Source: Roseovarius litorisediminis
GTDB lineage: Bacteria > Pseudomonadota > Alphaproteobacteria > Rhodobacterales > Rhodobacteraceae
Length of the DNA stretch: 64,000 bases
Direction of reading: 5' to 3'
Assembly: GCF_900172295.1 (NCBI RefSeq)
Contig: NZ_FWFL01000002.1
Location: forward strand, 372,001 to 436,000
Under the pieces are notes generated by a model. It saw nothing but the letters and a program-made list of their open reading frames with translations, was not told the DNA's origin and did not search any database. This document shows positions 5,813 through 38,879 of the stretch, piece after piece. Positions within the stretch are counted from its first letter, which is position 1; each line of letters begins with the position of its first letter. The position numbers were made by a program, and so were the translations under genes.

Positions 5813-5826
5813 GGCATTCCAACTTC

Positions 5827-5854
5827 TGGCGGCGGGCGTAACTGCCTGCCGCCA
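5827..5854 (+). terminator. Intercistronic hairpin between glnT and glxB
   Basis: TGGCGGCGGGC and GCCTGCCGCCA form an 11-bp stem with one G-U pair and a 6-nt loop. There is only a weak T-rich tail (TTCTTG). It may partially terminate or protect the glnT message, giving different amounts of GlnT and the Glx proteins. Confidence 0.65.
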
Positions 5855-5897
5855 TTCTTGAATACACGCAACATGCAACTTGAGGAGGCGCATTCAG

Positions 5898-7690: not shown

Positions 7691-7755
7691 TTGGCGCCCG
7701 GTCCCCCGCCTGTCGGGCAGGGGCCGCCCATTCCACGAAGGAAAGGAATTACAAA

Positions 7756-9120
7756 ATGGCTGATGGTGATCTGCCCAAAAAACCAGCGCTGGCGCGTGAT
7801 GTAAACCGCATCGGCAACAGCTTTATTTTCCCGCCGGCGGTGATGGATGACATCCACATCAAGTCTGAACTTGGCCGCTACCGGATGCGGGGTTTCTCGT
7901 TGTTCAAGAAAATCCCGCATTGGGATGATCTGACCTTCCTGCCCGGCACGCTGACGCGTTTCGTGATCGAAGGCTATCGCGAGAAGTGCGAAACCAAGAC
8001 CATTATTGGCCCCCGCGCCAAGAAACCGATTGAACTGGATATCCCGGTTTATATCACCGGCATGTCGTTTGGCGCCTTGTCATACGAGGCCAAGACGGCG
8101 CTTGCCCGCGGGGCAACCATGGCCGGCACGGCAACGTGTTCAGGTGAAGGTGGGATGATCCCGGACGAGCGACGCTATAGTTCAAAGTGGTTCTATCAGT
8201 GCATCCAGTCGCGCTATGGCTTTAACCCCAACCACCTGGTTCTGGCGGATGGCTGCGAATTCTTCATCGGTCAGGGCTGTAAAGTTGGCCTTGGCGGTCA
8301 CCTGATGGGTCAGAAAGTGACCGACCAGGTTGCCGAGATGCGCTCGCTGCCCGCCGGTATCGACCAGCGTTCACCTGCCCGTCACCCTGACTGGCTGGGA
8401 CCGGACGACCTGGCCCTGAAAATCCAGGAAATCCGTGAAGCCACCGATTGGCAGATTCCGATCCAGCTCAAGCTGGGCGCCAGCCGCGTCTATGACGATG
8501 TCCGGATGGCCGTTAAGTGTGACCCGGACAGCATCTATATCGACGGTATGGAAGGCGGTACCGGTGCAGGCCCGCACCTTGCGACAGAAGATACCGGTGT
8601 GCCGGGCATGGCGGCGATCCGTCAGGCGCGCAAAGCCATCGACGATCTGGGCAAGCGCGGCGAGATCACGCTGGTTTATGCCGGTGGTATCCGGAACGGT
8701 GCCGATGTGGCCAAGGCGATTGCGCTTGGCGCGGACGCCATCGCGATCGGTCACTCGGCGATGATGGCGCTGAACTGCAACAAGGACATCCCCGAGGCAA
8801 ATTATCCGGAGGAAGTCGGCGCAGAGCCAGGATATTGCTATCACTGCCATACGGGCCGTTGCCCGGTTGGTGTTGCGACGCAAGACCCCAAACTTCGCGA
8901 ACGTCTGGATCCCGATGCAGCCGCCGAACGTGTGTACAATTTCCTGCACACGCTTACCATCGAAGCACAGCTTTTCGCCCGTGCCTGTGGCAAGACCTAT
9001 CTGCATTCGCTGGAACCCGAGGATCTGGCCGCGCTTACGATGGAGGCTTCGGCCATGGCTGGCGTCCCGCTTGCGGGTACCAACCACACCGTCGGCATCG
9101 CCGATTATCACCACCTGTAA
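7756..9120 (+). CDS. glxD: FMN-binding glutamate synthase domain protein (GlxD/MgsC-like)
   Basis: A 454-residue FMN/iron-sulfur subunit equal to the synthase core of glutamate synthase. It has a TIM-barrel with YITGMSFGALSYEAKTAL, GEGGMIPDERRY, IQLKLGAS, YIDGMEGGTGAGP and VYAGGIRNGADVAKAIALG (FMN phosphate site). Cysteines 361, 364 and 369 in CYHCHTGRC match the 3Fe-4S ligands. The reaction would be reductive or transfer chemistry between 2-oxoglutarate and the nitrogen released by GlxB. No NAD(P)H-binding small subunit is encoded nearby, as is also true of rhizobial glxBCD and mgsABC, so the electron donor or transfer mechanism is open. The start is set by AAGGAATTACAAAATG; the frame is open 23 codons further upstream. 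Confidence 0.92.
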   Translation: MADGDLPKKPALARDVNRIGNSFIFPPAVMDDIHIKSELGRYRMRGFSLFKKIPHWDDLTFLPGTLTRFVIEGYREKCETKTIIGPRAKKPIELDIPVYITGMSFGALSYEAKTALARGATMAGTATCSGEGGMIPDERRYSSKWFYQCIQSRYGFNPNHLVLADGCEFFIGQGCKVGLGGHLMGQKVTDQVAEMRSLPAGIDQRSPARHPDWLGPDDLALKIQEIREATDWQIPIQLKLGASRVYDDVRMAVKCDPDSIYIDGMEGGTGAGPHLATEDTGVPGMAAIRQARKAIDDLGKRGEITLVYAGGIRNGADVAKAIALGADAIAIGHSAMMALNCNKDIPEANYPEEVGAEPGYCYHCHTGRCPVGVATQDPKLRERLDPDAAAERVYNFLHTLTIEAQLFARACGKTYLHSLEPEDLAALTMEASAMAGVPLAGTNHTVGIADYHHL

Positions 9121-9132
9121 TGCGTGAAGGTA

Positions 9133-9165
9133 CCCCCGCCCCGCCCGAATGGTGCAGGGTGGGGG
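9133..9165 (+). terminator. Intercistronic GC hairpin after glxD
   Basis: CCCCCGCCC (9133-9141) pairs with GGGTGGGGG (9157-9165) through 9 bp including one G-U, with a 15-nt loop. No T-run follows. It is the second clear hairpin between genes of this operon and may modulate transcript stability. Confidence 0.5.
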
Positions 9166-9195
9166 CAACCCACGCTCTCGACGAGGAGAAATAAA

Positions 9196-9609
9196 ATGGC
9201 TGGAACACAGTACCGCGGCTCCGAGATCAAGGATGTCGACCAGTTCCTGAAAGATGCCGACGGGCTTGGCTCGGAACGCGAAAAGGAAATCGGCCAGCAC
9301 ATCGGCTATCGTTATGATGTTAACCTTGTGCCCGATTACAATCGCATCACCCCCTATCTGGAAAAATACATGGAGGTGATGGGCTGGGACGATCTGAACT
9401 GGCTGGAAGATGTGCACATGGGATACGAAGAGGGCATGCCCGCCGTCTTTGACCGCAACAACAATGGTTGGATCCGCGTACCCGACACGATCGAACTGCC
9501 CGATAACCAGCAGGATCGCGATATGATTGCACGCGAACTTCTTCTGAAATTCCAGATGTCTGACCGTCACCCGCTGGTCAACCTCCGGAAGGCTTATATG
9601 AAGTTCTGA
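9196..9609 (+). CDS. Unrecognised 137-residue acidic protein in the glnT-glx operon
   Basis: A soluble protein with no signal peptide or membrane segment, starting MAGTQYRGSEIKDVDQFLKD after GAGGAGAAATAAA. It is acidic and rich in aromatic residues in the middle (YLEKYMEVMGWDDLNWLEDV, then MGYEEGMPAVFDRNNNGW) and ends LLLKFQMSDRHPLVNLRKA near the C-terminus. I do not recognise a family. It follows glxD and lies six nucleotides before a nitrilase-family gene, so it is part of the operon. A role as an extra subunit or assembly factor of the GlxBCD synthase is only an inference from position. Confidence 0.8.
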   Translation: MAGTQYRGSEIKDVDQFLKDADGLGSEREKEIGQHIGYRYDVNLVPDYNRITPYLEKYMEVMGWDDLNWLEDVHMGYEEGMPAVFDRNNNGWIRVPDTIELPDNQQDRDMIARELLLKFQMSDRHPLVNLRKAYMKF

Positions 9610-9615
9610 GCAAAC

Positions 9616-10464
9616 ATGCCGCGCCCGCTTGATATCGCCTGTCTTCAGACACGGCCAATGCCCGATTTTTCATCGGCGCTGGACGAGGCGATGCCGCTTG
9701 CAAATTCAGCGGTCACAGCGGGCGCGGACATTCTTTTTCTGCCGGAATACTGTGGCGGTCTGAAAACCGAAGGCCGGGCGGTTGTGCCGCCCTCGGCAGC
9801 CGAGGCAAGCCATCCGTTTCTTCAGGAAATGCAGGCATTTGCCGCCAAGCGCCAGGTCTGGGTGAATATCGGATCCGTTGCGGTGGATGGCCCTGACGGG
9901 CGGATCATCAACCGGGGTTTCATGCTGGATGATCAGGGCGCCATTCGTGGGCGCTATGACAAGATCAACATGTTTGATATCCAGCTGTCCGAGACCGAGG
10001 TCTACCGTGAAAGTGATCGCGTCAGCCCCGGGCATCAGGCTGTGATTCACGATACACCCTTTGCCCGTATCGGGCATACCATCTGTTACGATTTGCGCTT
10101 TCCTGATCTGTTTCGCAGCCTGGCGCAGGCCGGGGCCGAGATCATTTGCTGCCCTGCGGCCTTTACTCGCAAGACAGGTGCGGCGCACTGGCATGTTCTC
10201 AACCGGGCCCGCGCGATCGAAACGACGCGATTCGTTGTTTCTGCCTGTGCAATCGGGCCAATTCCGGGGGGTGGTGAAAGCTATGGCCATTCGCTGATCG
10301 TGAACCCATGGGGCGAGGTGATCAGTGATGGCGGCGCGCTGCCCGGTCTGGTTCAGGCCCGGATTGATCTGGACAATGTCGCCGAAACGGCGGCACGTAT
10401 CCCAAGCCTGATGAACGAGCAGCCATTTACACGCGCACCTGAAACCAAAAGGAACGTTGCATGA
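9616..10464 (+). CDS. Carbon-nitrogen hydrolase (nitrilase superfamily, Nit/omega-amidase-like)
   Basis: A 282-residue amidase with the complete nitrilase-superfamily triad: Glu44 in FLPEYCG, Lys116 in RYDKINMFD and Cys157 in HTICYDLRFPDLFR. RYDKIN and CYDLRFP are typical of the Nit1/Nit2 branch, which hydrolyses deaminated glutathione or 2-oxoglutaramate and 2-oxosuccinamate. In this operon an omega-amidase would fit, since it could remove an amide left after transamination of glutamine or of an N-substituted glutamine. That is inference. It starts six nt after the preceding gene, and its stop overlaps the next gene (ATGA). Confidence 0.9.
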   Translation: MPRPLDIACLQTRPMPDFSSALDEAMPLANSAVTAGADILFLPEYCGGLKTEGRAVVPPSAAEASHPFLQEMQAFAAKRQVWVNIGSVAVDGPDGRIINRGFMLDDQGAIRGRYDKINMFDIQLSETEVYRESDRVSPGHQAVIHDTPFARIGHTICYDLRFPDLFRSLAQAGAEIICCPAAFTRKTGAAHWHVLNRARAIETTRFVVSACAIGPIPGGGESYGHSLIVNPWGEVISDGGALPGLVQARIDLDNVAETAARIPSLMNEQPFTRAPETKRNVA

Positions 10465-11051
10465 GTTCTGTCGCCACCCAGCTGGGGCAAAGTTATTCCG
10501 ATCATCCGCTGCGCAAGGCTTTCCTGCGCTGGCAGTGCCGGGTGCGCCAGATGTCGATGCGCGATCAGGACGGGCGCCCGGATGACGCTATCATGCCAGC
10601 CGTTCTGCTGCCGGACCAGCCCGAAGCATTGGGGCACATCATCACGGTCATGAACAAGGCGCCTGGATATTCGGTGACCGCCGAACTGACCCATATGGCG
10701 GCAAAAACCAACGATCCGGCACAGCGTCGTGATGCAGCGATCCGTTTTCTTTCAGCCGGATATTTTCAGAACGCTGTAGAATTCTCGGACATCCTTACGG
10801 CGACTTTCCCGCCCGGATCGGAAGGCGCGAAAAAAATACACGACGCCGGGCAGTGCCAGTTGGTGTTCGAGGCCTATGCCCAGACGTTTGACCTGACCTG
10901 CAAGGTCTGGCGACTTGCGCCGCACAACCTGCTGCATCAGGCCACCATGGCACATAACAGATTGTTCAATCCGAGCATCCATCCCGATACCGAAGTTTTG
11001 GGTTTTGAGCCGGACTGGGGCGCAAGCTCTTCCGACCCGGCCTATTCATAA
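10461..11051 (+). CDS. Unrecognised 196-residue protein ending the glnT-glx operon
   Basis: A soluble protein with an ATGA overlap to the nitrilase gene, so it is translationally coupled. The N-terminal part reads SDHPLRKAFLRWQCRVRQM, a basic amphipathic stretch; the middle contains AQRRDAAIRFLSAGYFQNAVEFSDI, and an AHNRLFNPSIHPDTEVLGFE segment follows. There are no membrane helices and no motif that I can name. Its coupling to an amidase and a GS/GlxBCD set suggests a role in the same nitrogen pathway. The product is a conserved-looking hypothetical. Confidence 0.8.
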   Translation: MSSVATQLGQSYSDHPLRKAFLRWQCRVRQMSMRDQDGRPDDAIMPAVLLPDQPEALGHIITVMNKAPGYSVTAELTHMAAKTNDPAQRRDAAIRFLSAGYFQNAVEFSDILTATFPPGSEGAKKIHDAGQCQLVFEAYAQTFDLTCKVWRLAPHNLLHQATMAHNRLFNPSIHPDTEVLGFEPDWGASSSDPAYS

Positions 11052-11485
11052 TAAAAATCTGAGTCACCTTCGACGCACGCGGGTCTGATCCGGCGGAGCG
11101 CGCCTGCGCGCGCACTTTATCCCTCGTCAGGCTGGCGCCTTCCTCAGATCTGGATGCCAGGTGACGGGTATAACTGATGTGGCGGGGGGAGAGCTTTGGG
11201 ACGAGTATTTGTTGAAAAATGAAAGTTCGGGGTGTTTTGTTTAATCGCTTTCTCAAAAGCACTTTGGGCCTGGCACCCCTCTTTTGAGCACCTGGTTTAG
11301 CGTGGTCAGCGGCTTGGTCGCTGGACCGCGGGTTTCTGACTCTGAAATGTTGACTATGGGTTCGGCGGCTTACTGAAAGCCGTTGTGGTGCCAGGTTGAA
11401 GCAACCTGCAAATGCCAGAGCGTTTGGGAAATCTCTGGACTCGCAATTTTTTCCGTATACAAATTGTATTCAAATAGGAGATTCG
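11052..11485 (+). promoter_or_regulatory. Intergenic region before the betaine-like operon, with a candidate GntR operator
   Basis: 434 bp without a convincing gene. A palindrome ATACAAATTGTAT (6-1-6, positions 11457-11469) lies 16 bp before the gntR start and is a good candidate autoregulatory site for a GntR/FCD protein. A weak hairpin lies at 11304-11327 (GGTCAGCG with CGCTGGACC, one bulge). The GC-rich stretch at 11094-11112 could end the upstream operon. Confidence 0.55.
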
Positions 11486-12190
11486 ATGGCCACTGATAAG
11501 AAAGCCCGCTGCCTGGACGATTTGCGCATGCGAATCCTCACGCTTGATATCGCACCCGGTTCCGACTTGGACGAGGCCGCGCTGTGCGAGCAGTATGGTA
11601 TTTCGCGAACGCCTATTCGCGAGGTGTTTCAACGTCTGGGCGGGGAGGGGTATCTGAGGCTTGAGCAGAATCGCGGCGCCAAAGTGACCTCGATGGATCT
11701 GGGCGTGATGCGGGTATTCTTTCAAACCGCACCGATGATTTATGCCAATGTGGCGCGATTGGCGGCCGAGAACCGCCGTTCGGATGAAATCCCGGGTTTG
11801 AAAGACGTTCAGCATGCGTTCCGGGCTGCAGCGCAGGCCGGCGATGCGGGCCAGGCGGCGTTGCTGAACCACCGGTTTCACCGCCAGATCGGCGAGATGG
11901 CACATAACCCCTATCTGTTGCCCAGTCTGAACCGGATGCTGATTGATCACACCCGGTTAAGTCAGACGTTTTATCGACCCGCCTCGGAGGACGAGGCCGG
12001 GCGCGTTAACCGCGCCATTGACCAACACGATCAGATGATTGTCGCGATTGAGCGACAAGAGGCGGCTTTGGCTGTCGATCTGACCATCGACCACTGGAAC
12101 CTGTCACGGGATCGGCTGGAGCGGTTCGTCACCCCTGACCCGCTGCCCATTGACGTGCTTGCAATGAAGGACAGAAAACATGCAGTTTGA
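11486..12190 (+). CDS. GntR-family (FCD) regulator heading an 11-gene catabolic operon
   Basis: A 234-residue regulator with an N-terminal winged helix (residues about 5-70; CEQYGISRTPIREVFQRLGG and the wing LEQNRGAKVT) and a helical FCD domain with FHRQIGEMAHNPYL and IDQHDQMIVAI, which carry likely metal-binding histidines. The ATG follows ATAGGAG. Directly upstream is the palindrome ATACAAATTGTAT. The gene is the first of the operon rather than divergent from it, and its end overlaps the next gene by 11 nt. Autoregulation with derepression by a pathway substrate is the simplest model. The inducer is unknown. Confidence 0.92.
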   Translation: MATDKKARCLDDLRMRILTLDIAPGSDLDEAALCEQYGISRTPIREVFQRLGGEGYLRLEQNRGAKVTSMDLGVMRVFFQTAPMIYANVARLAAENRRSDEIPGLKDVQHAFRAAAQAGDAGQAALLNHRFHRQIGEMAHNPYLLPSLNRMLIDHTRLSQTFYRPASEDEAGRVNRAIDQHDQMIVAIERQEAALAVDLTIDHWNLSRDRLERFVTPDPLPIDVLAMKDRKHAV

Positions 12191-13088
12191 AGGCATATGG
12201 ACCCCCGTTGTCACGCCTTATACGGACGATTTCCAGATCAACGAACAGGCCCTGGCCGATACGGTAGGCCTGCTGATCGATAAAGGGGTGCACGGAATTA
12301 TCGTGTCCGGCACAACCGGCGAATACTATGCGCAGTCCCATGAGGATCGGATCTGGCTGATGCAGCGTGTGCGGGAGCTTATCAATGGTCGCGTGCCGCT
12401 GGTTGTCGGCACAGGTGCGTTGCGCACCGAGGACAGCATTGAATATGCCAAGGCGGCAAAAGATATTTGTGCTGATGCCATTCTGATCGCGACCCCGCCC
12501 TATTCGGTGCCCACGGGCCGAGAGATCGCCTTGCATGCTCTGGCGATTGACCGGGCGGTGGATATGCCAGTGATGCTGTACAACTATCCCGGCCGGATGG
12601 GTGTGAACATGGACGAGGAAACCCTGGACAGGCTGGGGCGGTCACCCAATTTCTGCGGTATCAAGGAAAGCAGCGGAGACATCAACCGTCTGCATATGAT
12701 CGCGCGCGATTACCCGCATCTGGGGCTGCTGTGTGGCATGGACGATCAGGCGCTTGAGTTTTTCGCCTGGGGCGCGCGTGGTTGGGTCTGTGCCGGGTCG
12801 AACTTTGCCCCCGAGGCGCATGTGGCTCTTTATGAGGCCTGTGTTCTGGAGGGTGATTTTACCAAAGGTCGCGCCATCATGTCGGCGATGATGCCACTGA
12901 TGCGCGTACTGGAACAGGGCGGTAAGTTCATCCAGTGCATCAAGCACGGGCTCACCCTGCGTGGCATTCCTGCAGGACCGCCGCTTAAGCCTCTGCATCC
13001 GCTGAACAAGGACGACAAGCGAGAGCTTGAGAACGTGATCCGCACAATGAACACGGCTGTGGCCAAAATCACAGGAGAGGCGAAATGA
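12180..13088 (+). CDS. DapA/HpaI-fold dihydrodipicolinate synthase family lyase or deaminase
   Basis: A 302-residue class I aldolase-fold protein. The Schiff-base lysine is Lys162 (GIKESSGD), the catalytic tyrosine lies in MLYNYPGRMG (about 134-136), and the substrate-carboxylate motif GTTGE is at 44-48. Besides dihydrodipicolinate synthase, the family includes N-acetylneuraminate lyase, KDG aldolases and pyrroline-4-hydroxy-2-carboxylate deaminase of hydroxyproline catabolism. The last fits best here, because the next gene is an aldehyde dehydrogenase (2-oxoglutarate semialdehyde would be the shared intermediate) and an epimerase of HpbD type is in the same operon. The start lies inside the end of the gntR gene, and the stop overlaps the aldehyde dehydrogenase start by 4 nt. 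Confidence 0.9.
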   Translation: MQFEGIWTPVVTPYTDDFQINEQALADTVGLLIDKGVHGIIVSGTTGEYYAQSHEDRIWLMQRVRELINGRVPLVVGTGALRTEDSIEYAKAAKDICADAILIATPPYSVPTGREIALHALAIDRAVDMPVMLYNYPGRMGVNMDEETLDRLGRSPNFCGIKESSGDINRLHMIARDYPHLGLLCGMDDQALEFFAWGARGWVCAGSNFAPEAHVALYEACVLEGDFTKGRAIMSAMMPLMRVLEQGGKFIQCIKHGLTLRGIPAGPPLKPLHPLNKDDKRELENVIRTMNTAVAKITGEAK

Positions 13089-14575
13089 CTGACCTTCTGA
13101 CCCGCGACGAATACGGCGCCATTGCCGCCGAGATCGACCTGCCCAAGACACCGTTCATTGACGGCAAGTTTCAAAAGGGCAATGGCCCGCTGATGGAAAC
13201 GGTGAACCCGGCCACCGGAGATGTGCTGGTGAAGATCAGTACCGCCGATGCCAAAGACGTGGATTTTGCCGTTGGGAAGGCGCGAGAGGCGTTTGAGCAG
13301 GGCCACTGGTCGCGTCTGCATCCGTCCGAGCGCAAGGACGTGTTGATCCGGTTTTGCAAGCTGATCACCCGGCGGCGGCGCGAACTGGCCGTGATGGAAA
13401 GCCTGGACAGCGGCAAGCCCATTCGCGATTGCGAGTTGATTGATATCCCCGAGACGATCCACACGATCAAATGGCATGCCGAGCTGATCGACAAGATCTA
13501 TGATCAGACCGGGCCATCGGGGGATGATGCGATCAGCATGATCGTCCGCGAGCCGATTGGCGTGGTGGCCGCGGTGCTGCCGTGGAACTTCCCGATGCTG
13601 ATGATGGCATGGAAGATCGGGCCGGCGCTGGCGGCGGGCAACTCGGTGATCGTAAAACCGGCCGAGCAGACCAGCCTGACCGCGCTGCGTCTGGCCGAGA
13701 TTGCGCATATGGCCGGCATCCCGCGCGGGGTGTTGCAGGTGCTGCCGGGGGGCGGGCCCGAGGTGGGAGAGCCGTTGGGCCTTCATATGGATGTGGACAT
13801 GATCAGCTTTACCGGCTCGACCGAGACCGGCAAGCGGTTCCTGCGCTATGCGGCTGACAGCAACGTGAAAGAGGTTACGCTGGAATGCGGCGGCAAGAAC
13901 CCGGCGGTTGTGCTGGAGGATGCCGAAAACCTGGATAGCGTCGCCGAGCATGTCGTCAACGCGGCGTTCTGGAACATGGGCGAGAATTGCAGCGCCTCGT
14001 CGCGGCTGATTGTGCACAAGGCCGTCAAAGAGCCGCTGATGGAGCGGATCGTGGCACGCATTCGCGACTGGAAGGTGGGCGATCCGCTGGACCCGGCCAA
14101 CCATCTGGGCGCGCTGATTGATAGTGAGCATTGCAAGAAGGTCAGCGGCTATCTGACCGGCAAAGCGCTGGTGGGCGGCAAGACGGATGGAAACTTTGTG
14201 GCCCCGACGGTGTATGAAGTCAAAAAAGACGACGCACGCGCGCGCGAGGAAATCTTTGGGCCGGTGCTGAGCGTGATCGAAGTTGCCAGCACGGAAGAAG
14301 CGATAGAGCTGGCGAATGACACTGCCTATGGCCTTGCCGCGAGTGTATTTTCGGCCAACACCCGCAACGCCATACGTGCCGCCCGCAATATCAGGGCGGG
14401 GACGGTGACGGTGAACTGCTATGGCGAGGGCGACATCAGCACGCCGTTTGGTGGCTACAAGCAATCGGGCTTTGGCGGGCGCGATAACTCGGTTCATGCG
14501 CATGACCAGTTTACCCAGCTGAAAACCATCTGGATCGATCTGAGCGATCCGGCAGACGGGGATGATGTGGGATGA
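13085..14575 (+). CDS. NAD(P)-dependent aldehyde dehydrogenase (ALDH superfamily)
   Basis: A 496-residue aldehyde dehydrogenase with all key residues: Asn168 (PWNFP), Glu267 (LECGGKNP) and the nucleophile Cys302 (GENCSASSR). The NAD-binding signature FTGSTETGK lies near 242-250. It resembles the gamma-glutamyl-aminobutyraldehyde/betaine aldehyde branch. Placed after a DapA-family enzyme, it could oxidise 2-oxoglutarate semialdehyde to 2-oxoglutarate, the final step of hydroxyproline breakdown. Which semialdehyde it takes is inferred from neighbours. ATGA overlaps at both ends point to coupled translation. Confidence 0.93.
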   Translation: MTDLLTRDEYGAIAAEIDLPKTPFIDGKFQKGNGPLMETVNPATGDVLVKISTADAKDVDFAVGKAREAFEQGHWSRLHPSERKDVLIRFCKLITRRRRELAVMESLDSGKPIRDCELIDIPETIHTIKWHAELIDKIYDQTGPSGDDAISMIVREPIGVVAAVLPWNFPMLMMAWKIGPALAAGNSVIVKPAEQTSLTALRLAEIAHMAGIPRGVLQVLPGGGPEVGEPLGLHMDVDMISFTGSTETGKRFLRYAADSNVKEVTLECGGKNPAVVLEDAENLDSVAEHVVNAAFWNMGENCSASSRLIVHKAVKEPLMERIVARIRDWKVGDPLDPANHLGALIDSEHCKKVSGYLTGKALVGGKTDGNFVAPTVYEVKKDDARAREEIFGPVLSVIEVASTEEAIELANDTAYGLAASVFSANTRNAIRAARNIRAGTVTVNCYGEGDISTPFGGYKQSGFGGRDNSVHAHDQFTQLKTIWIDLSDPADGDDVG

Positions 14576-15336
14576 ACAGGGTCGGTTTCCTGGGCACGGG
14601 CCATATCGCTGCTCCGATGGCCCGGGTATTGGCTCGCAAAAATTTTTCTGTGACCGTGTCAAAGAGAAATCCGCAAGTTGCCGCCGGGCTGGTGGCTGAC
14701 GGGCTGGGGATACGGGTTGCATCCAATCAGGGTGTCGTGGATGCGTCTGATGTCGTGTTTCTTTGCCTGCGACCGGCTGTCTGGGCCGACGCGGTAGCCG
14801 GTCTGACCTGGCGGGACGATCAGCAGATTGTGTCGGTCATGTCCGGGGTGACGCTGGCCGAGATTGCGCAGGCCTGCCCCCCGGTGACCAAAATTTCGGC
14901 CACGATCCCCTATGGATTTGTCGAGCAGGGCAACTGCCCCTTGCCGGTTGTGGGCGACCCTTCGGCGGTGCAAGCCTTGTTTGGAGATGAGAACCCCGTT
15001 CTTCCACAAACGGAAGAAACCGCGCTGAGATATTTTTTCGCGGCCTCCGCTTTGGTTTCGGGGGTTCTGGAGATGTTGGAAACCTCGGGTGACTGGTTAG
15101 CCGGACAGATCGGAGATGCTGATCAGGCCGAGGTATATGTGGCCAATATGGTCACCGGGGTTCTTTCGAATATGGACAAATCGCGCGCCGGGCGGTTGGC
15201 GGACGAGAAATGGGCACTGGCCACCCCGAATACGCTGAACCTGCAAATGGTGGAAGGGCTGAAGCGTGATGGCGCGTTTGACCAACTTCCTAGTTTACTT
15301 AATCAAATTTCTGCCAGCATGGAGAAGAACGCATGA
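14572..15336 (+). CDS. Pyrroline-5-carboxylate reductase-like NAD(P) oxidoreductase
   Basis: A 254-residue protein with the dinucleotide-binding start GFLGTGHIAAPM, VVFLCLRPAVW, and VSVMSGVTLAEI, all in the positions found in ProC. The C-terminal half is helical with AEVYVANMVTGVLSN, matching the dimerisation domain only loosely. ProC reduces a cyclic imine to proline; in this operon a relative could reduce a pyrroline carboxylate or another cyclic imine made by the FAD oxidase. The match to ProC is clear in the N-terminal domain and weaker beyond it, so the substrate is not assigned. The protein is slightly shorter than standard ProC (about 265-275). Confidence 0.82.
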   Translation: MNRVGFLGTGHIAAPMARVLARKNFSVTVSKRNPQVAAGLVADGLGIRVASNQGVVDASDVVFLCLRPAVWADAVAGLTWRDDQQIVSVMSGVTLAEIAQACPPVTKISATIPYGFVEQGNCPLPVVGDPSAVQALFGDENPVLPQTEETALRYFFAASALVSGVLEMLETSGDWLAGQIGDADQAEVYVANMVTGVLSNMDKSRAGRLADEKWALATPNTLNLQMVEGLKRDGAFDQLPSLLNQISASMEKNA

Positions 15337-16883
15337 GCGTTGATGCAGTTGGAACCACCCGCCGCGGGCGGGGTGCCAGAAAGGCCATTCGCCAGACGCG
15401 GGACGTGAAAATGTTACCTGCGCTCAAGCGGAACCTGCCGCTGACAGAACCGATGGATGCTGAGCAGATCTCGCGGATTGACGCGGCCTCGATGCATATA
15501 CTGGAAAATGTCGGTGTGGTTTTCCGTGATGACATAGCTTTGGAGGACTGGCGTCTTGCCGGTGCCAAGGTGGTGGGCGACCGGGTGTATCTGGACCGGG
15601 GATTGGTGCGCGAGCTGATCAGGACCATCCCTGAAACCTTCATCTATCACGCGCGCAACCCGGCCAATAACCTGCCGTTTGGCCGCGAGCATGCCATATT
15701 CGTGCCGATGACCGGTGCGCCGTTTCTGCGTGATCTGGAGGATGTGCGGCGCAATCCGACGCTGGACGATCTGGCAAACTTTCACAAGCTGGCGCATATG
15801 CTGCCGGCCCTGCATTCTTCGGCGCACCACATCGTTGAGCCCTATGATCATCCGATCAGCCAGAGACATCTGCGGATCACCTACAGCTCGATGAAACATT
15901 CCGACAAGACGTTCATGGGTATGACAACCAGCCCAAAGAACGCCGAGGACGTGATGGAGATGTGCGCGATTGTGTTTGGTGAGGATTTTCTTGAAACTCA
16001 TCCGGTCTGCACTGGCAACTGCAATGGGAACTCACCACTTGTGTGGGATGAAACCATGCTGGGTGCGATGCGTGCCTTCAACAAACGTAATCAGCCGGTG
16101 CTGTGCTCTCCTTTCGTGCTGGGCGGGGCGAACACGCCGGCCAGCGTTGCGCCCACCGTGGCGCAACTGAATGCCGAGGCACTGAGCGCGCTGGCCTATA
16201 CGCAGGTGGTGCGCAAGGGCTGCCCGGCGATCTACGGTCACTACCTCAGCGCGGTCAGCATGAAATCCGGCGCGCCGATGGCTGGCACCCCCGAGATCAG
16301 CCTGATGAACCTGATGATCGGTCAGATGGCGCGGTTCTACGGCGTGCCTTGGCGGTCCTCGAATACGCTTGGCGGCGCCAAGACGTTTGACGCGCAGGCG
16401 GGGTATGAAAGTGCCACAACGCTGATGGCGCTGCAGATGGCAGGCACCAATTACATGTGGCACTCGGCCGGATGGAACGAGGCCGGGATGCATTGCTCGA
16501 TGGCCAAATTCGTTGTCGATGCCGAGCAATGTGCCATGGCCTATCGCATGGCCGAAGGCATCCGTTGGGATGACTTTGACGAGGCTTTGGCGGCGGTGGC
16601 AGACGTCGGCCCGGGCGGGCATTACCTGGGTCATCCGCATACGTTGGAAAACTTTCAGCGGGCGTTTTTCATGCCTGAATTGTTCGACAACAACTCGATC
16701 GAACAATGGCAGGCCGAGGGCGGCGTTGAGATAAATGAGCGTGCCCTCACCCAGGTCAAAACCATGCTGAACGAATACGAGGAGCCCAAGCTGGACGCTG
16801 GCGTCAACGAGGCGCTTCTGGATTACATCGCCCGGCGTGAGCGGGAAATCCCTGCTGCAGATGCGTTAAATCAGGATATCTGA
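15333..16883 (+). CDS. Trimethylamine methyltransferase family protein (MttB superfamily, non-pyrrolysine)
   Basis: A 516-residue protein of the MttB superfamily: corrinoid-dependent methyltransferases for trimethylamine, glycine betaine (MtgB), proline betaine (MtpB) and related quaternary amines. Recognisable stretches are DAASMHILENVGVVF, HARNPANNLPFG, TSPKNAEDVMEMC and SAGWNEAGMHCS. There is no in-frame amber codon, so it is not a pyrrolysine enzyme. The expected reaction is transfer of a methyl group from a quaternary amine to a cobalamin protein. No corrinoid protein (MtgC/MttC type) or corrinoid:tetrahydrofolate methyltransferase is found in the window, so the partner is missing or elsewhere. 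The surrounding operon, with a betaine epimerase, supports a betaine substrate. Confidence 0.88.
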   Translation: MSVDAVGTTRRGRGARKAIRQTRDVKMLPALKRNLPLTEPMDAEQISRIDAASMHILENVGVVFRDDIALEDWRLAGAKVVGDRVYLDRGLVRELIRTIPETFIYHARNPANNLPFGREHAIFVPMTGAPFLRDLEDVRRNPTLDDLANFHKLAHMLPALHSSAHHIVEPYDHPISQRHLRITYSSMKHSDKTFMGMTTSPKNAEDVMEMCAIVFGEDFLETHPVCTGNCNGNSPLVWDETMLGAMRAFNKRNQPVLCSPFVLGGANTPASVAPTVAQLNAEALSALAYTQVVRKGCPAIYGHYLSAVSMKSGAPMAGTPEISLMNLMIGQMARFYGVPWRSSNTLGGAKTFDAQAGYESATTLMALQMAGTNYMWHSAGWNEAGMHCSMAKFVVDAEQCAMAYRMAEGIRWDDFDEALAAVADVGPGGHYLGHPHTLENFQRAFFMPELFDNNSIEQWQAEGGVEINERALTQVKTMLNEYEEPKLDAGVNEALLDYIARREREIPAADALNQDI

Positions 16884-16884
16884 C

Positions 16885-17529
16885 ATGCAGGTTAGCATTA
16901 AGGCCGGACAACCCGATCATGCTTCAGAGCGCATTGCGGAACTGATCTGGTCGACCGATCCAGTCTTAATGAATTTCATGTTTGGAGATATTTCGGCGTT
17001 TCGGCGCGCTACAGCGCGCGAGTGGCCATCAGACGCGGGGCTTATTTGCTACAAGCAAGCTTTTGTTGCCGAGGCCAATGACGAGATCGTCGGTCTTTGC
17101 ATCGGGCATACCACAGAGGAATACGGTCCGAATTTCGAAGCGGCGCAGCGTATTCAATCCGCTGCACTTAGGGCGGCAGAAGGTTGGCATATCCGCGAGG
17201 CGCTGGATTGGATGGATCGCTTGTTTCCCGCCCCCCGCGACGAATCTTTTTATATTCTTGAACTCGCCGTGAGTGAAAACGCTCAGGGTCTGGGCCTGGG
17301 TCGCAAACTGCTTGGCAAAGCGGTTGAGCGTGCACGGCAGTTGCAATGCAAACGGCTTGCGCTTGATGTTGCAGCGGATAATCCGGCGGTCGATTTCTAT
17401 CTTCAGCTTGGGCTTGAAGTCGAGATTGAGACGCGTGTGCCCTGCCTGGCAGATGGTTTCGGGATTGGCGCGCACCTTCACATGTCCGCACCGCTGGGCA
17501 AACTGGCAACCAGTTTAAAGGACATATGA
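16885..17529 (+). CDS. GNAT-family N-acetyltransferase
   Basis: A 214-residue protein with the acetyl-CoA-binding core near residues 128-165 ([20 protein letters not shown], the Q-x-x-G-x-G/A motif A) followed by [20 protein letters not shown] (motif B). An N-terminal helical extension of about 50 residues precedes the fold. It follows the MttB-family gene after one nucleotide and overlaps the epimerase gene by 4 nt. The acceptor is unknown; detoxification or activation of an amino intermediate in the pathway is possible. No firmer function can be read. Confidence 0.85.
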
Positions 17530-18635
17530 TGCGTATTGCTGAACTTCATATCTACCAGCACGATCTGCCGGTGAAAAACGGCCCGTATACCATGGCCAAT
17601 GCACAGGTCTGGTCCCTGACCAGCACACTGGTTCGGTTGATTTCGGATACCGGGCTGGAAGGTTGGGGAGAGACCTGCCCGGTTGGCCCGACCTATGCTG
17701 AGGCCCATGCTAACGGCGCATGTGCTGCGCTGATGGAAATGGCTCCCGGTCTGATTGGGGCCGAGGTTACGACTCTGACCCTGCACCGGGCGATGAACGG
17801 GCTGCTGAACGGCCATAACTATGCCAAAGCGGCTATTGATATTGCCGCCCATGACCTGATCGGCAAGGCGACCGGTTTGAGGGTGGCTGATCTGCTGGGC
17901 GGGGCAATAACTGCGCGGGTTCCCTCTTATTACGCCACGGGTGTGGGCGAACCCGATGACATTGCACGCCTTGCCGCAGATAAAGTGGCTGAAGGCTATC
18001 CGCGATTGCAGATCAAGGTAGGCGGCCGCCCGGTCGAGGTGGATATTGCTGTCATCCGCAAAGTCTGGGAAACGATAGGCACGGCGGCCCGTCTAGCAGT
18101 GGATGGCAATCGCGGCTGGACCACCCGTGATGCGCTGCGCGTCAGTCGCGAATGCCCTGACATCCCGTTCATCATGGAACAGCCGTGCAACACCCTGGAC
18201 GATTTGCGACAGATACGCGGGCAAGTGGGCCATGCGATTTACATGGATGAAAACGCCGTCGATCTGTCGACTGTGATCAACGCCGTCGGCACCGGGTTGG
18301 TGGATGGGTTCGGTATGAAAGTCACGCGCATTGGAGGCCTGCACCCGATGGCGGCTTTCCGCGATATCTGCGAATCGCGCAATTTGCCTCATACCTGCGA
18401 CGACAGTTGGGGCGGGGATATCATCGCCGCCGCCTGCACCCATATCGGGGCCACGATCAATCCGCGCCTGTTGGATGGTGTCTGGTTGGCAGCACCTTAT
18501 ATCGAAGGGCATTACGACCCCGAGAACGGTATCCGAATTGAGGGCGGTCATATCAATCTGCCCCAAGGGCCGGGGCTGGGCGTGGTGCCGGATGTATCAC
18601 TGTTCGGTGATCCTGTGGCCGCTTTCGGAGGCTGA
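17526..18635 (+). CDS. hpbD: Betaine 2-epimerase-like enolase-superfamily enzyme (HpbD type)
   Basis: A 369-residue member of the muconate-lactonising branch of the enolase superfamily. Catalytic bases Lys164 (LQIKVGG) and Lys265 ([11 protein letters not shown]) and metal ligands Asp193 (VDGNRGW), Glu218 (IMEQP) and Asp241 (YMDENAV) are in place. The stretches [24 protein letters not shown] and [13 protein letters not shown] closely match my memory of HpbD from Pelagibaca bermudensis, which epimerises trans-4-hydroxyproline betaine and proline betaine at C2. I therefore infer that a prolyl betaine or close analogue is the operon's substrate. Two adjacent ATG codons (17526 and 17529) could start it. 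The exact substrate range cannot be read from sequence. Confidence 0.85.
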
Positions 18636-18638
18636 GGG

Positions 18639-19829
18639 ATGGTTTCGAAGCTGCCATATCTTGATCTGAGCGATCCTGAATTCTCGACCCGAGGGCCCGA
18701 TGTGCTGGCCGCCCGCGATGCGGGCTGGTGTGCCGAAACGCCCTATGGTCTGGCGGTGCTGCGCTGGCGCGAAGTGGGTAAAATCTTGCGGGACAGGCGG
18801 TTTCGGCAGGGCAGTCACAACTGGCCGGGTACGGTGGGTATTTCAGGGCCGTTTGCAGATTTCTGGCGGCAGTCGGTGATCGGGCAGGAAGGAAATGCGC
18901 ATCAGCGCCTGCGTGCGCTGGCAGTGCCCGCGCTGAGTGAAGATTATGTGCAGAGTCTCAAGCCCGCTTTCCTGCAGATCGCCCGCGACATTTGTGCAAC
19001 GTTGCGCAAGACCGACCGGGCCGAGTTTCAATCTGCCTTTTGCGATCCGTTCACGGGCCAGGTGATTGGCACGCTACTTGGGCTGGGGCAGGATGAATGG
19101 CCTGCGGTCGCGCGTGATGCGTCCGAGTTGGGCCTGGCGATGGGGATCACGGCAAAACAGTACGAGGATCGCTCCAATGCCGCCTGTGAACGCCTGTTTG
19201 CGAAAGCCGAGCAACTGGTGTCGCGGGTGCAGCAGGGTAAAGATAGCGACAGTTACATCGCGCGGATGGTTGCCGAATTCGACAAAAACGGCGATTGCAG
19301 CCATGCCGAACTGCACAACACCATTGTGATTTCGATCTTTGGCGGTGTCGATACCACGCGTGCATTGCTGGGCCTGGGGCTGTCGCTTTTCATTGAAAAC
19401 CCTGATCAATGGCAAAAGCTGCGCGCGGATGCCTCGCTGATTCCAAGCGCGGTTGACGAGTTTATCCGCGCCCGCCCCACCACCACCTGGGCCACCCGCG
19501 AAGCGACTGAAGATGTGGATATGAACGGGATGGTGATTGCCAAAGGCACGGTTCTGCATCTGCTGGTTCATGCCTCGGCCCGCGACCCGGAAATCTGTAA
19601 TGATCCAAGGTTTGACATTTCAGCGACCCGTAAAAAGCACTTTGGCTTTGGCGGTGGTGCGCATCACTGCATCGGCCATTTCGTGGCCCGCACTGACATA
19701 GCCGCAGCCCTGACAGCATTGCGCGAGACTTTTGCAACTATAGCGTATGACGGCACACCGGATTGGCTGCCGGACAGTGGTAATACCGGGGCTATCAGGC
19801 TGCCGATCAAATATGAGGTTACAATATGA
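18639..19829 (+). CDS. Cytochrome P450 monooxygenase
   Basis: A 396-residue soluble bacterial P450. The haem-thiolate motif FGGGAHHCIG places the ligand at Cys344. The oxygen-activation I-helix motif GGVDTTR lies near residues 234-240, and the ExxR pair is in DEFIRARP. A typical substrate-entry region HQRLRALAVPALSE includes the conserved HxxxR. No ferredoxin or ferredoxin reductase gene lies in the operon, so electrons must come from elsewhere. In this pathway oxidative N-demethylation or ring hydroxylation of a betaine is a reasonable guess, taking the place of the Rieske demethylase known from other proline betaine operons. It starts 3 nt after the epimerase stop. Confidence 0.93.
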   Translation: MVSKLPYLDLSDPEFSTRGPDVLAARDAGWCAETPYGLAVLRWREVGKILRDRRFRQGSHNWPGTVGISGPFADFWRQSVIGQEGNAHQRLRALAVPALSEDYVQSLKPAFLQIARDICATLRKTDRAEFQSAFCDPFTGQVIGTLLGLGQDEWPAVARDASELGLAMGITAKQYEDRSNAACERLFAKAEQLVSRVQQGKDSDSYIARMVAEFDKNGDCSHAELHNTIVISIFGGVDTTRALLGLGLSLFIENPDQWQKLRADASLIPSAVDEFIRARPTTTWATREATEDVDMNGMVIAKGTVLHLLVHASARDPEICNDPRFDISATRKKHFGFGGGAHHCIGHFVARTDIAAALTALRETFATIAYDGTPDWLPDSGNTGAIRLPIKYEVTI

Positions 19830-20557
19830 GATTTAATAATAAAAATGCACTTGTAACCGGTGCTTCAGGCGGCATTGGCAAGGTGTTGGTTGCGATGCTT
19901 CGGGCAGAAGGCGCACGTGTGGCAGTGACCGACCGCGATACGTCAGGCGTTCAGGCCGAGGCGCATCTGGATGGTGATCTGCTGGATGATGCCTTTTGTG
20001 ACGGTCTACCAGGGCAGGCGGCCGAGGCCCTGGGCGGGCTGGATATCGTCTGCAACAATGCTGGCGTCATTACCCGGGGCAACATTACCTTGGCCACCGA
20101 TGCCGATTACGCACTTACGATGGGCGTCAATGTCGAAGCGCCGTTTCGGATCTGCCGTGCTGCAATTCCCCTGATGGCCCAGGCAGGAGGTGGGGCGATC
20201 GTAAACACCGCTTCGTGCTGGGGCCTTAGCCCGGGGCCGGATCATCCACTTTATATCATGTCCAAGGCTGCCCTTGCGTCGCTGACCCAGTGCCTGGCGC
20301 GTGATCATGCGCATCAGGGTATTCGCGTGAATGCCGTATGCCCGAACGAAGTGAATACACCAATGCTGCGCACGGGATTTGCCATTCGCGGGCTGGATCC
20401 GGACAAGGCGGTGGACGAGTTGAATGCCAGTGTACCGCTGGGCCGGATCGCCGAGCCCGAGGATATTGCGGATGTTATTATATTTCTGGCCTCGGACGCT
20501 GCGCGCTATGTCTGTGGTGCGCTGGTCGAGGCCAACGGTGCTAAACCGGTGGCATGA
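19826..20557 (+). CDS. Short-chain dehydrogenase/reductase (first of two)
   Basis: A 243-residue classical SDR. The NAD(P)-binding motif TGASGGIG is at about residues 11-18, NNAG near 78 and the catalytic Tyr-Lys pair in YIMSK. Acidic residues after the second strand (VTDRD) favour NAD over NADP. It oxidises or reduces an alcohol/ketone intermediate. Overlaps of 4 nt with the P450 gene and with the next SDR point to coupled translation. It differs clearly from its neighbour, so this is not a recent duplication. The substrate is unknown. Confidence 0.9.
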   Translation: MRFNNKNALVTGASGGIGKVLVAMLRAEGARVAVTDRDTSGVQAEAHLDGDLLDDAFCDGLPGQAAEALGGLDIVCNNAGVITRGNITLATDADYALTMGVNVEAPFRICRAAIPLMAQAGGGAIVNTASCWGLSPGPDHPLYIMSKAALASLTQCLARDHAHQGIRVNAVCPNEVNTPMLRTGFAIRGLDPDKAVDELNASVPLGRIAEPEDIADVIIFLASDAARYVCGALVEANGAKPVA

Positions 20558-21288
20558 TGGGGAGGTTTTCAGGAAAAGTCGCGCTTGTCACAGGGGCCTC
20601 GTCGGGCATGGGACAGGCAACGGCACGCATGCTGGCGGACCAGGGCGCGCGGGTCTTTACCGCGCAGCGCGGTGCTGCAGAGCATGAGGCGCTTGTGGCG
20701 GATTTCACTGATCCGGGTGCCCCCGAACAGGTGGTCAATGCCGTGCGCAAGGCTGCTGGTCAGCTTGATATCCTGATCAACAACGCTGGTGTGATGCGCG
20801 AGGGCACGGTCGAGGAAACAACGCAGGACGACTGGCACCTGCAGCTTCAGGTCAACCTGACTGCCCCTTTTCTGCTGACCCGCCACGCCATGCCGTTGCT
20901 GAAACAAGGCCGCGGTGCGATCGTGAACGTCGGCTCGATTGAAGGGCTGGGGTCGAACCCGCGCCATCCGGCCTATTGTGCGTCAAAGGCGGGCTTGCAT
21001 GGGCTGACCCGCGCCGTGGCGGTGGACCACAGCCCCGACGGGGTGCGCTGTAACGCCGTCGCCCCCGGCTGGATCGACACAGGCCTGAACGTTGATTTCA
21101 TCGAAAGCATGGGCGATCCGGAAGAGTTCCGTCGGCAGATTGGCCGGATTCATCCGGTGCGACGTACCGGGCTGCCTGAAGAAGTGGCGCGGCTGATCTG
21201 CTGGCTGGCGTCAGACGAGGCAAGTTTCGTCACCGGACAGATTTACACAATTGATGGGGGTCGCACATCCCAACTGAGTCTGCCATGA
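20554..21288 (+). CDS. Short-chain dehydrogenase/reductase (second of two)
   Basis: A 244-residue classical SDR with TGASSGMG (about 13-20), NNAGVM, a serine in VNVGSIEG and YCASK for catalysis, ending GQIYTIDGGRTSQ. It resembles FabG-like oxidoreductases of catabolic operons. It lies between another SDR and an FAD amino-acid oxidase, with ATGA overlaps on both sides. A hydroxylated intermediate formed by the P450 would be a natural substrate for one of the two SDRs, but this is inference. Confidence 0.9.
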   Translation: MMGRFSGKVALVTGASSGMGQATARMLADQGARVFTAQRGAAEHEALVADFTDPGAPEQVVNAVRKAAGQLDILINNAGVMREGTVEETTQDDWHLQLQVNLTAPFLLTRHAMPLLKQGRGAIVNVGSIEGLGSNPRHPAYCASKAGLHGLTRAVAVDHSPDGVRCNAVAPGWIDTGLNVDFIESMGDPEEFRRQIGRIHPVRRTGLPEEVARLICWLASDEASFVTGQIYTIDGGRTSQLSLP

Positions 21289-22616
21289 AAGTGACCCGCC
21301 TGCCGGTCGATACCGGCCCTGCCGCCTGGAACAGAATACTACCGCCGCAAGAACCCGCAAAGGTACTTGAAGAAAACATCACTGCGGACTGGTTGGTGAT
21401 CGGTGGGGGCTTTGCCGGGCTGGCCGCAGCTCGTCGCCTGAGCCAATTGCATCCGGGTGACCGTATCGTGTTGCTGGAAGCCAAACGCATTGCCGAGGGC
21501 CCGGCGGGGCGCAATACCGGTTTCATGATCGATCTGCCGCATCACCTGACCTCGGAAGGGTATGGCGGCCAGATGGAAAAGGACCGCGCCGAGGCTGCTG
21601 CCAACCGGGCAGGCATTGCCTTTGCTGCCGAGATGGCTGCTGAATTCGGTCTTAGCCGTGAGGCGTTCAACCCCTCAGGCAAGATCAACGCTGCCGCAAC
21701 TGAGCGGGGCCATAAACACAATCTGGACTATGCCCAGCATCTGAGCAATCTGAATGAGGCACATCAGTTGCTGGACGCAAAGCAGATGCACGAGATGACA
21801 GGGACCACCTATTATCAAAGTGGTCTCTTTACGCCGGGTGCTGTGATGATCCAGCCGGCGCTATTCGTGCGGGGCATTGCCAGAAGTCTGAAAGCCAACC
21901 ACATCTCGATATTTGAAAACTGCCCGGTCACACAGTTGACCCGCAATGGCGAATGGACGGCGCGAACGCCAGGGGGACATGTATCGGCGCCCAAGGTTAT
22001 CCTTGGGGTGAACGGCCATGCCAACAGCTTTGGCAAGTTCAAAGGCCGGCTGATGCATATCCACCTTTACGGGTCGATGACGCGGGCGCTGACGCCCGAG
22101 GAATGTCGTAAACTGGGTGGGGCAGACCGCTGGGGGGTGACGCCCGCTGATCCGATGGGATCAACAGTGCGGCGCATTTCAGGTACCGGGGGCGACCGTA
22201 TAATTGTGCGTAACCGCTTTACCTATGACCCGACGATGCAGGTCAGCGAGGGCCGCGTCGCCCGGATGGCACAGGACCACAGCAAAGGTTTTGCGGCGCG
22301 GTTCCCAATGCTAGACGGTGTCAGGATGGAATACCGCTGGGGTGGTCGCCTATGTCTGAGCCGGAATAATGTGCCTGCTTTGGGCGAGGTCGACGAGGGG
22401 CTGTATTCCGCGTGCTGCCAGAACGGGCTGGGCACTGCCAAGGGCACTCTGCATGGCATGCTGATGGCTGATCTGGCTTCGGGCAATGGCTCGGATCTGC
22501 TGGATCAGGTTATGGATCAGCCTCGCCCCTCGCGCCTGCCACCCAATCCGTTTGCCTATATCGGCGCCAACGCAGCGCTGCGCTGGAGCGAGATCAAAGC
22601 AGGGAAAGAAATTTAG
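21285..22616 (+). CDS. FAD-dependent amino-acid oxidase (DAO/PuuB-like family)
   Basis: A 443-residue flavoprotein with the Rossmann motif VIGGGFAGLAAARRL near residues 37-52 and the GRNTGFM segment found in gamma-glutamylputrescine oxidase-like members. The C-terminal FAD-contact region is RWGGRLCLSRNNVPALGEV followed by CCQNGLGTAKG. Members of this family oxidise secondary amines, D-amino acids and N-methyl amino acids. As the last gene of the operon it could oxidise a D-proline or N-methylproline product made after epimerisation and demethylation, yielding the cyclic imine for the DapA-family enzyme. This placement is inferred. Confidence 0.9.
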   Translation: MKVTRLPVDTGPAAWNRILPPQEPAKVLEENITADWLVIGGGFAGLAAARRLSQLHPGDRIVLLEAKRIAEGPAGRNTGFMIDLPHHLTSEGYGGQMEKDRAEAAANRAGIAFAAEMAAEFGLSREAFNPSGKINAAATERGHKHNLDYAQHLSNLNEAHQLLDAKQMHEMTGTTYYQSGLFTPGAVMIQPALFVRGIARSLKANHISIFENCPVTQLTRNGEWTARTPGGHVSAPKVILGVNGHANSFGKFKGRLMHIHLYGSMTRALTPEECRKLGGADRWGVTPADPMGSTVRRISGTGGDRIIVRNRFTYDPTMQVSEGRVARMAQDHSKGFAARFPMLDGVRMEYRWGGRLCLSRNNVPALGEVDEGLYSACCQNGLGTAKGTLHGMLMADLASGNGSDLLDQVMDQPRPSRLPPNPFAYIGANAALRWSEIKAGKEI

Positions 22617-35362: not shown

Positions 35363-35468
35363 GTCAAACTCCCGAATATTCTTGATTTTCTACTACCGCA
35401 GTTATTCATTGTTCTGAAATACTGAAAAAATCCTAGCTGCTTCAATAGAAAGCTAATAATCTCATTTC

Positions 35469-36380: not shown

Positions 36381-36406
36381 CGCCAGGCACGACGCCAGAA
36401 CCTTTG

Positions 36407-36760: not shown

Positions 36761-36913
36761 TTTCATGCCTCAACGGTTTGCACTGCACCAATCATTGCCG
36801 ATTTTTGCTCTAACTTAACACCTTACTCTTGCAAGTAACTCTTTCAAGATTTTCTGGAAAGTTGTTTTTATTATTTTGACATAAAACGAAATCAAAAAAT
36901 CGGAGACTTTTTT

Positions 36914-38850: not shown

Positions 38851-38879
38851 CGCGGACAGCTACGACAGGAGGGCTGATC

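Follow-up and report, generated by a model that had tools for sequence, protein, structure and literature searches.

Prolyl betaines, which belong to the stress compounds of plants and algae, are the known substrates of the epimerase HpbD, and the aerobic demethylases of these betaines known to us are Rieske oxygenases. The canonical 4-hydroxyproline pathway comprises the enzymes HypRE, HypO, HypD and HypH. For Ruegeria, passages of PMC12478193 report that aerobic demethylation of glycine betaine by MtgBCD was shown, describe a joint methionine synthase/glycine-betaine demethylase and propose that extra MttB paralogues act on other methylated compounds. Here we analyzed an eleven-gene operon of Roseovarius litorisediminis located on contig NZ_FWFL01000002.1 of RefSeq assembly GCF_900172295.1, within positions 372,001 to 436,000 of the forward strand; this whole stretch of 64,000 nucleotides is referred to as the window. 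We infer, with a probability of about 0.6, that the operon catabolizes 4-hydroxyproline betaine, perhaps proline betaine, via a corrinoid route. It represents one version of a conserved catabolic module; members of this module that bear HpbD most likely break down 4-hydroxyproline betaine or a closely related compound, an MttB-family methyltransferase being the predicted first demethylase. An initial annotation made from the DNA letters had proposed catabolism of a cyclic betaine, and for the operon with HpbD this is still the most likely function.

The window sits on contig 22 of the 3.999-Mb genome. All eleven open reading frames were confirmed on one strand, with ATG starts and frames intact throughout. 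Eight of the ten junctions overlap (one by 11 nt, seven by 4 nt), and gaps of 1 and 3 nt separate mttB from the GNAT gene and hpbD from the P450 gene, exactly as initially annotated. The family labels given then also hold by Pfam (GntR plus FCD, DHDPS, Aldedh, F420_oxidored, MTTB, Acetyltransf_1, MR_MLE, p450, two SDR, DAO), and the fad product has both the domain and the fold of the DAO family. In the following list, core and plug-in refer to the modular arrangement described further below.

11455–11472, + strand: operator-like palindrome GTATACAAATTGTATTCA, 13 nt upstream of the gntR start; candidate GntR site
11486–12190, + strand: gntR, GntR/FCD-family regulator, core (Pfam GntR 52.1 bits, FCD 64.5 bits)
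12180–13088, + strand: dapA, predicted Schiff-base lyase of the DHDPS superfamily, core (Pfam DHDPS 211.8 bits)
13085–14575, + strand: aldh, aldehyde dehydrogenase nearest to PuuC/KauB-type aminoaldehyde dehydrogenases, core (NCBIfam models, PDB)
14572–15336, + strand: proC-like reductase, plug-in (PRK06476 139 bits, cutoff 254)
15333–16883, + strand: mttB, non-pyrrolysine methyltransferase of the MttB superfamily, core; predicted first N-demethylase (Pfam MTTB 714.9 bits)
16885–17529, + strand: GNAT-family acetyltransferase, plug-in (Pfam Acetyltransf_1 54.6 bits)
17526–18635, + strand: hpbD, (hydroxy)proline-betaine 2-epimerase by orthology (matches to PDB 4e8g and 2pmq; annotated hpbD)
18639–19829, + strand: cytochrome P450, possible N-demethylase of an N-methyl intermediate (Pfam p450 77.7 bits)
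19826–20557, + strand: SDR1, NAD-type short-chain dehydrogenase, plug-in (Asp36)
20554–21288, + strand: SDR2, NADP-type short-chain dehydrogenase, plug-in (Gln38-Arg39)
21285–22616, + strand: fad, flavin amine oxidase of the DAO family, core (Pfam DAO)

The named organisms with the most closely related operons belong to Roseovarius, and the order gntR-dapA-aldh-mttB-hpbD-P450-SDR1-SDR2-fad was judged not to be due to chance because it is repeated in seven further loci of this genus (L040, L041, L042, L130, L131, L132 and L133; L129 duplicates L040). The proC-like gene occupies the same slot in loci L177, L183, L184 and L188 and the GNAT gene in L177 and L184; neither was found in the Roseovarius loci L040 or L042, and both genes vary.

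The substrate class is suggested by HpbD. The protein matches PDB entries 4e8g, 4izg and 4j1o with 611 bits and 2pmq and 4h2h with 548 bits, the next entry following at 216 bits; we take 4e8g and 2pmq to be HpbD. It is 70.9% identical to the annotated hpbD product (4-hydroxyproline betaine 2-epimerase) of Paracoccus pantotrophus and scores 260 against the NCBIfam model for cis-3-hydroxyproline dehydratase (cutoff 500), for which another protein of the same genome scores 712. Residues K164 and K265, presumably the two catalytic lysines, and W320, presumably the aromatic residue over the cation, are retained in 97% or more of 90 aligned sequences. Orthology thus supports the function of a (hydroxy)proline-betaine 2-epimerase, and the PDB matches, the annotated hpbD and the below-cutoff dehydratase score all speak against membership in a different enolase-superfamily group, which the initial annotation had named as the finding that would overturn its proposal. 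In loci L130, L131 and L132, HpbD is 59–65% identical although the operon MttB is 89–91% identical; these HpbD proteins are possibly fast-evolving or replaced, perhaps with a changed substrate. A further variant is seen in L083, L085, L066, L051, L086 and L092, two of which are Streptomyces loci: here, genes for a Zn-alcohol dehydrogenase and for another enzyme of the enolase superfamily lie near HpbD.

The MttB protein matches PF06253 with 714.9 bits (cutoff 25) and is encoded by a 516-codon open frame without in-frame TAG. Its score against TIGR02369, the model for the pyrrolysine-containing trimethylamine MttB, is 281.7 and below the cutoff of 525, which speaks against an identity as the trimethylamine enzyme. 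The genome encodes nine MTTB paralogues (L001–L009) that are 23–48% identical to each other, versus one corrinoid protein of family PF02607. PF02607 and PF07796 have one match each in the genome, in open reading frames 0.6 kb apart (L128), and contig C13 carries genes for an MtgE-like homocysteine methyltransferase, MtgC (PF02607) and a DUF1638 protein close together; PMC12478193 describes such components for the joint methionine synthase/glycine-betaine demethylase of Ruegeria. The single PF02607 match suggests that a classical MetH is absent.

The neighborhoods of both genes were compared across genomes, with loci that end at contig ends scored as lacking the gene in question. One genome per species was scanned for HpbD, and among the best 80 of 148 relatives, 57 loci hold an orthologous MttB (at least 70% identity), with both genes on one strand and no more than 300 bp apart in 39. 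These 57 loci are far from independent, since they are spread over 20 named genera (plus eight loci without genus name) and Ruegeria contributes 17. The SDR pair is present in 55 of the 57, and gntR, dapA, aldh and fad are present in addition in 48. Few hold the proC-like gene (3) or a flavoenzyme resembling HpbA (4), and the GNAT gene was found in none (0/57). Betaine-type transporters are encoded near a part of them (ProV type 21/57, BCCT 11/57), as is a GbdR-like regulator (36/57; model score below its cutoff).

In a family survey of 248 genomes, one per genus and our own included, MttB orthologues (E ≤ 1e-215) were found in 65, about a quarter of the genera sampled, with matches of at least 77% identity. 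HpbD orthologues (E ≤ 1e-140) were found in 14 (in one of these, G252, a stop is reported within the match, which was scored as present). Thirteen of them are among the 65 genomes with MttB and one is among the 183 without (Fisher p 1.2e-7), and the two genes lie within about 6 kb of each other, by coordinates, in nine of the thirteen. HpbD is therefore tied to MttB, while MttB mostly occurs without HpbD. Stretches of up to 20 kb were compared around 40 of the 65 MttB places, leaving 25 aside: dapA, aldh and fad are present in 35, gntR as well in 32, the SDR pair in 11, the proC-like gene in 4, the GNAT gene in 2 and HpbD in one (L203, apparently the same contig as L066). These neighborhoods show that the conserved unit is a widespread five-gene core, gntR-dapA-aldh-mttB-fad, to which plug-ins are added in a modular fashion. 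The eleven genes consequently do not form the one fixed pathway initially assumed, and HpbD, considered as a core member, was rejected since most MttB genomes and stretches lack it. The five core genes are complete in 80 loci. In 30 of these they share one strand, the arrangement seen in the window; the remaining 50 are organized differently, typically as two convergent halves. In Cereibacter sphaeroides 2.4.1 the cluster lies on plasmid pB. A contig of a metagenome-assembled genome of Verrucomicrobiales (L112) carries dapA, aldh, mttB, fad, HpbD and the SDR pair, with gntR not found, and reflects either inter-phylum transfer or mis-binning.

The constancy of this core bears on whether the window MttB could simply be the glycine-betaine enzyme MtgB, flanked by unrelated genes. 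The MtgB of aerobic roseobacters likewise belongs to PF06253, a likeness at family level drawn from passages of PMC12478193. The window protein is, in contrast, one of nine paralogues and shares no more than 43% identity with the other eight, and it is accompanied by dapA, aldh and fad, which glycine betaine would not require; this identity has hardly any chance of being correct.

The initial annotation had further proposed that a P450 and MttB replace the known Rieske demethylase, and the two halves of this proposal fared differently. The canonical Rieske protein encoded beside the Paracoccus hpbD has its best match in the R. litorisediminis genome at 36% identity over 213 amino acids (E 5.5e-35), and no close homologue was found in this genome. 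Fifty of the 57 genomes with HpbD and MttB were searched at E ≤ 1e-100, and the Rieske protein was present in 25 and absent from 25; half of these genomes would thus be without a close Rieske protein able to perform the demethylation. For the HpbD loci without MttB, genome-wide searches covered 16 of 23 (all but L087, L088, L098, L103, L108, L116 and L117). Six of the 16 genomes have MttB elsewhere, two of these six together with the Rieske protein (E ≤ 1e-100), and of the other ten genomes eight have the Rieske protein at this threshold. Mutual exclusion of Rieske and MttB was considered and is not supported (25/50 versus 8/10, Fisher p 0.16). The sharpest case of a swap is Paracoccus onubensis (L085/G313), where hpbD stands with a Rieske protein and its reductase, the SDR pair, fad, aldh and dapA, and no MttB orthologue was found in the genome at E ≤ 1e-150. 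These comparisons support the view that MttB stands where the Rieske demethylase stands in other systems.

The P450 half did not hold. The translation shows the haem-cysteine and I-helix motifs. At 60% identity or more, however, the gene is confined to Roseovarius operons among the loci examined, being present in three of the 57 loci with HpbD and MttB and missing from the other 54 and from all 40 MttB stretches, and in R. albus its slot is occupied by a flavoenzyme/demethylase resembling HpbA. A general, conserved role of the P450 as demethylase or Rieske replacement was rejected on these two grounds, and for the same reasons it would serve a later step, if anything.

Nor was the initial assignment of dapA, aldh and fad to the known hydroxyproline route supported. 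The genome holds a separate hydroxyproline cluster on contig 23 (L140), with an epimerase, a cis-3-hydroxyproline dehydratase, an FAD oxidase, a DapA member and an aldehyde dehydrogenase; the 4-hydroxyproline epimerase scores 578 bits against its NCBIfam model (cutoff 450) and the dehydratase is likewise above the curated cutoff. The window DapA is not an orthologue of the L140 protein, with which it shares 25% identity and which was taken as HypD, the deaminase of the pathway, by context and not by a curated model. It conserves the motifs IKESSGD and YNYP (95-sequence alignment) and scores 193.1 against TIGR00674 (dapA), below the cutoff of 206.15. The aldehyde dehydrogenase reaches 501 bits for PuuC, 429 for BADH and 323 for the aKGSA dehydrogenase, every score being under its cutoff, and its nearest PDB entry is 7uyy, followed by PuuC-type enzymes and KauB. 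In our reading, DapA and this dehydrogenase would act in a chemistry parallel to the known route, with an intermediate that is N-methylated or differs in some other way; DapA may be a deaminase, a retro-aldolase or a 4-hydroxy-2-oxoglutarate aldolase. A pathway in which P450 and MttB jointly replace the Rieske enzyme and the remaining genes follow the known route from hydroxyproline to 2-oxoglutarate would agree with the gene families, and two P450 relatives (42–45% identity) adjoin amine genes of the glutamine-synthetase type on plasmids; set against the absence of the P450 from nearly all related loci, the distant DapA and an aldehyde dehydrogenase nearest to PuuC/KauB rather than to the aKGSA dehydrogenase, it is highly unlikely.

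The SDR pair accompanies HpbD. Asp36 of SDR1 is invariant in 81 of 81 sequences and Gln38-Arg39 of SDR2 in 82 of 82, which we take to indicate NAD-type and NADP-type enzymes, respectively. The two genes are adjacent and on one strand in all 73 loci that hold both, among 120 examined, and the pair is found in 56 of 58 MttB loci with HpbD versus 10 of 39 without. In the proposed catabolism of 4-hydroxyproline betaine, HpbD, judged by orthology, would invert C2 of the imported betaine, and MttB would transfer one N-methyl group, via the corrinoid protein MtgC, whose gene lies elsewhere in the genome, to tetrahydrofolate, yielding an N-methyl ring amino acid. The second N-methyl group would probably be taken off by the P450 or, in R. 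albus, by the HpbA-like flavoenzyme. The FAD oxidase may oxidize the N-methyl tertiary amine, the 2-oxo product of ring opening may be the substrate of the DapA-family lyase, and the aldehyde arising from the DapA step may be oxidized by the aldehyde dehydrogenase. HpbD and the SDR pair could act as adaptors that bring further stereoisomers into the core, the pair plausibly inverting the C4 hydroxyl by NAD-dependent oxidation and subsequent NADPH reduction. A more specific version is a stereochemical funnel, in which a single stereoisomer of 4-hydroxyproline betaine would be broken down by the core and no free hydroxyproline would appear: MttB would take one methyl group, the FAD oxidase would open the N-methyl ring, DapA would act as a retro-aldolase giving pyruvate and methylaminoacetaldehyde, and the aldehyde dehydrogenase, of the aminoaldehyde type, would form sarcosine, while the remaining isomers would be converted by HpbD (C2) and the NAD/NADP SDR pair (C4), with the P450 as a lineage-specific extra. 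In this full form the scheme is decidedly unlikely.

Several observations weigh against hydroxyproline betaine as the substrate or against the proposed steps. Most MttB cores are without HpbD (52 of 65 family genomes, 39 of 40 MttB stretches), so that the core's own substrate need not be a substrate of HpbD. Betaine transporters are nearly absent from the 40 MttB stretches (ProV 0, BCCT 1), as they are from the Roseovarius loci L040–L043 and from the window operon. Rieske and MttB genes co-occur at the frequencies given above. The swap in the P450 slot is one case, with another OYE-type family, below cutoff, as the best NCBIfam model for the flavoenzyme, and the operon holds no redox partner for the P450. 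After accounting for relatedness, the link between HpbD and the SDR pair comes down to six independent pairs, splitting about 4 to 0 with two uninformative (median p 0.125).

The rarity of HpbD among the cores is an argument for a different reading, in which the core degrades another, non-prolyl quaternary amine and HpbD and the SDRs were added later for an extra substrate, so that the term hydroxyproline betaine pathway would fit the plug-in only. Yoonia SS1-5 (L136) agrees with it, having dapA-aldh-mttB-fad next to a BCCT carrier and no orthologues of hpbD or of the SDR pair found within 25 kb. So does a quickly built MttB tree (103 rows, 63 with HpbD), which requires 14 changes of the HpbD label, six or more of them forced on well-supported branches; the rows were partly picked by HpbD, and 'without HpbD' refers to the stretch covered. 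The same repeated gain and loss can be turned against this reading: HpbD, whose substrates are taken to be prolyl betaines, has repeatedly joined and left the core and is rare without MttB (1/183), and a common intermediate is the simplest reason for this. We regard a non-prolyl core as unlikely and prefer prolyl-betaine catabolism for the HpbD-bearing operons. In Yoonia SS1-5, gntR is annotated as two overlapping short genes and may be broken.

Control of the operon is probably exerted by the GntR protein through the candidate palindrome at 11455–11472. At up to three mismatches this is the sole match in the window, with 0.02 expected, and across an alignment of nine upstream regions, that of the window included, its half GTATACA does not vary. 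The gntR start at 11486 was chosen over an upstream TTG at 11396 because the palindrome would otherwise fall within the gene. Scans for promoters and terminators gave counts at chance level.

Upstream of the operon, positions 4334–9117 hold a glutamine-synthetase-like gene followed by genes with GATase, GXGXG and glutamate-synthase domains, which resemble, we assume, a gamma-glutamylmethylamide/N-methylglutamate synthase set. In L040, L131 and L132, synteny ahead of the operon covers parts of this set and also a small gene, one of the nitrilase family and one encoding 196 aa. The upstream operon of the glutamine-synthetase/glutamate-synthase type (4334–11051) shows synteny in these three loci and in parts in L042 and L129, and no synteny at the remaining loci examined. 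A functional link through methylamine release and re-assimilation is only a thought. Further downstream, we presume purine/allantoin degradation genes with a xanthine/uracil permease at 34103–40322 and, about 19 kb from the operon, a cluster like that of the beta-hydroxyaspartate cycle with an IclR-type regulator at 41513–46900. Elsewhere in the genome, three enolase-superfamily genes lie in a row beside Rieske-like, dimethylglycine-dehydrogenase-like and Zn-alcohol dehydrogenase genes (L141, contig 23), possibly another cluster for a betaine or cyclic amino acid.

If correct, the proposed route would provide aerobes with a B12-dependent path for one class of osmolytes of algae and plants. Several MttB-type proteins are often present in marine bacteria that have MtgC, and the passages of PMC12478193 (2025) leave the substrates of the extra paralogues open. 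One such paralogue, present in 65 of 248 sampled genera, is now tied to defined neighbors and, through HpbD, to prolyl betaines, and its substrate is therefore directly testable, for example in Cereibacter sphaeroides 2.4.1. In the open-licence literature, subscription papers being mostly outside the search, no paper was found that joins HpbD and corrinoid betaine demethylation to this downstream gene set.

Among described systems, the hpb cluster on pPAN2 of Paracoccus pantotrophus shares the close HpbD and the aim of removing N-methyl groups from prolyl betaines. It has a Rieske pair, HpbA, a betaine ABC transporter and fdhA, whereas the window operon has MttB, dapA-aldh-fad and the SDRs, no Rieske protein, and neither fdhA nor a transporter within the operon; among 16 proteins of the pPAN2 region, that of hpbD alone matches a protein of the operon (blastp, E ≤ 1e-5). 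The canonical 4-hydroxyproline pathway likewise combines an epimerase, an FAD oxidase, a DapA-family lyase and an aldehyde dehydrogenase in one cluster, but R. litorisediminis has this pathway separately, with the distant DapA described above. MtgBCD of Ruegeria pomeroyi, as described in passages of PMC12478193, shares the PF06253 enzyme, the stand-alone corrinoid protein, the DUF1638 protein and the aerobic roseobacter host; the window MttB differs in being tied to a cyclic-betaine epimerase and catabolic genes for an amino-acid ring, and none of the operon's neighbor genes is named in the portions of the results and discussion of PMC12478193 consulted. The proline-betaine methyltransferase MtpB of Eubacterium limosum, cited in PMC8604678, is by description an MttB-superfamily demethylase of a prolyl betaine, the function predicted here, from an anaerobic acetogen, and the passages of PMC8604678 consulted mention no HpbD or downstream ring-degrading operon. 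Corrinoid demethylation of betaines and HpbD are each already known.

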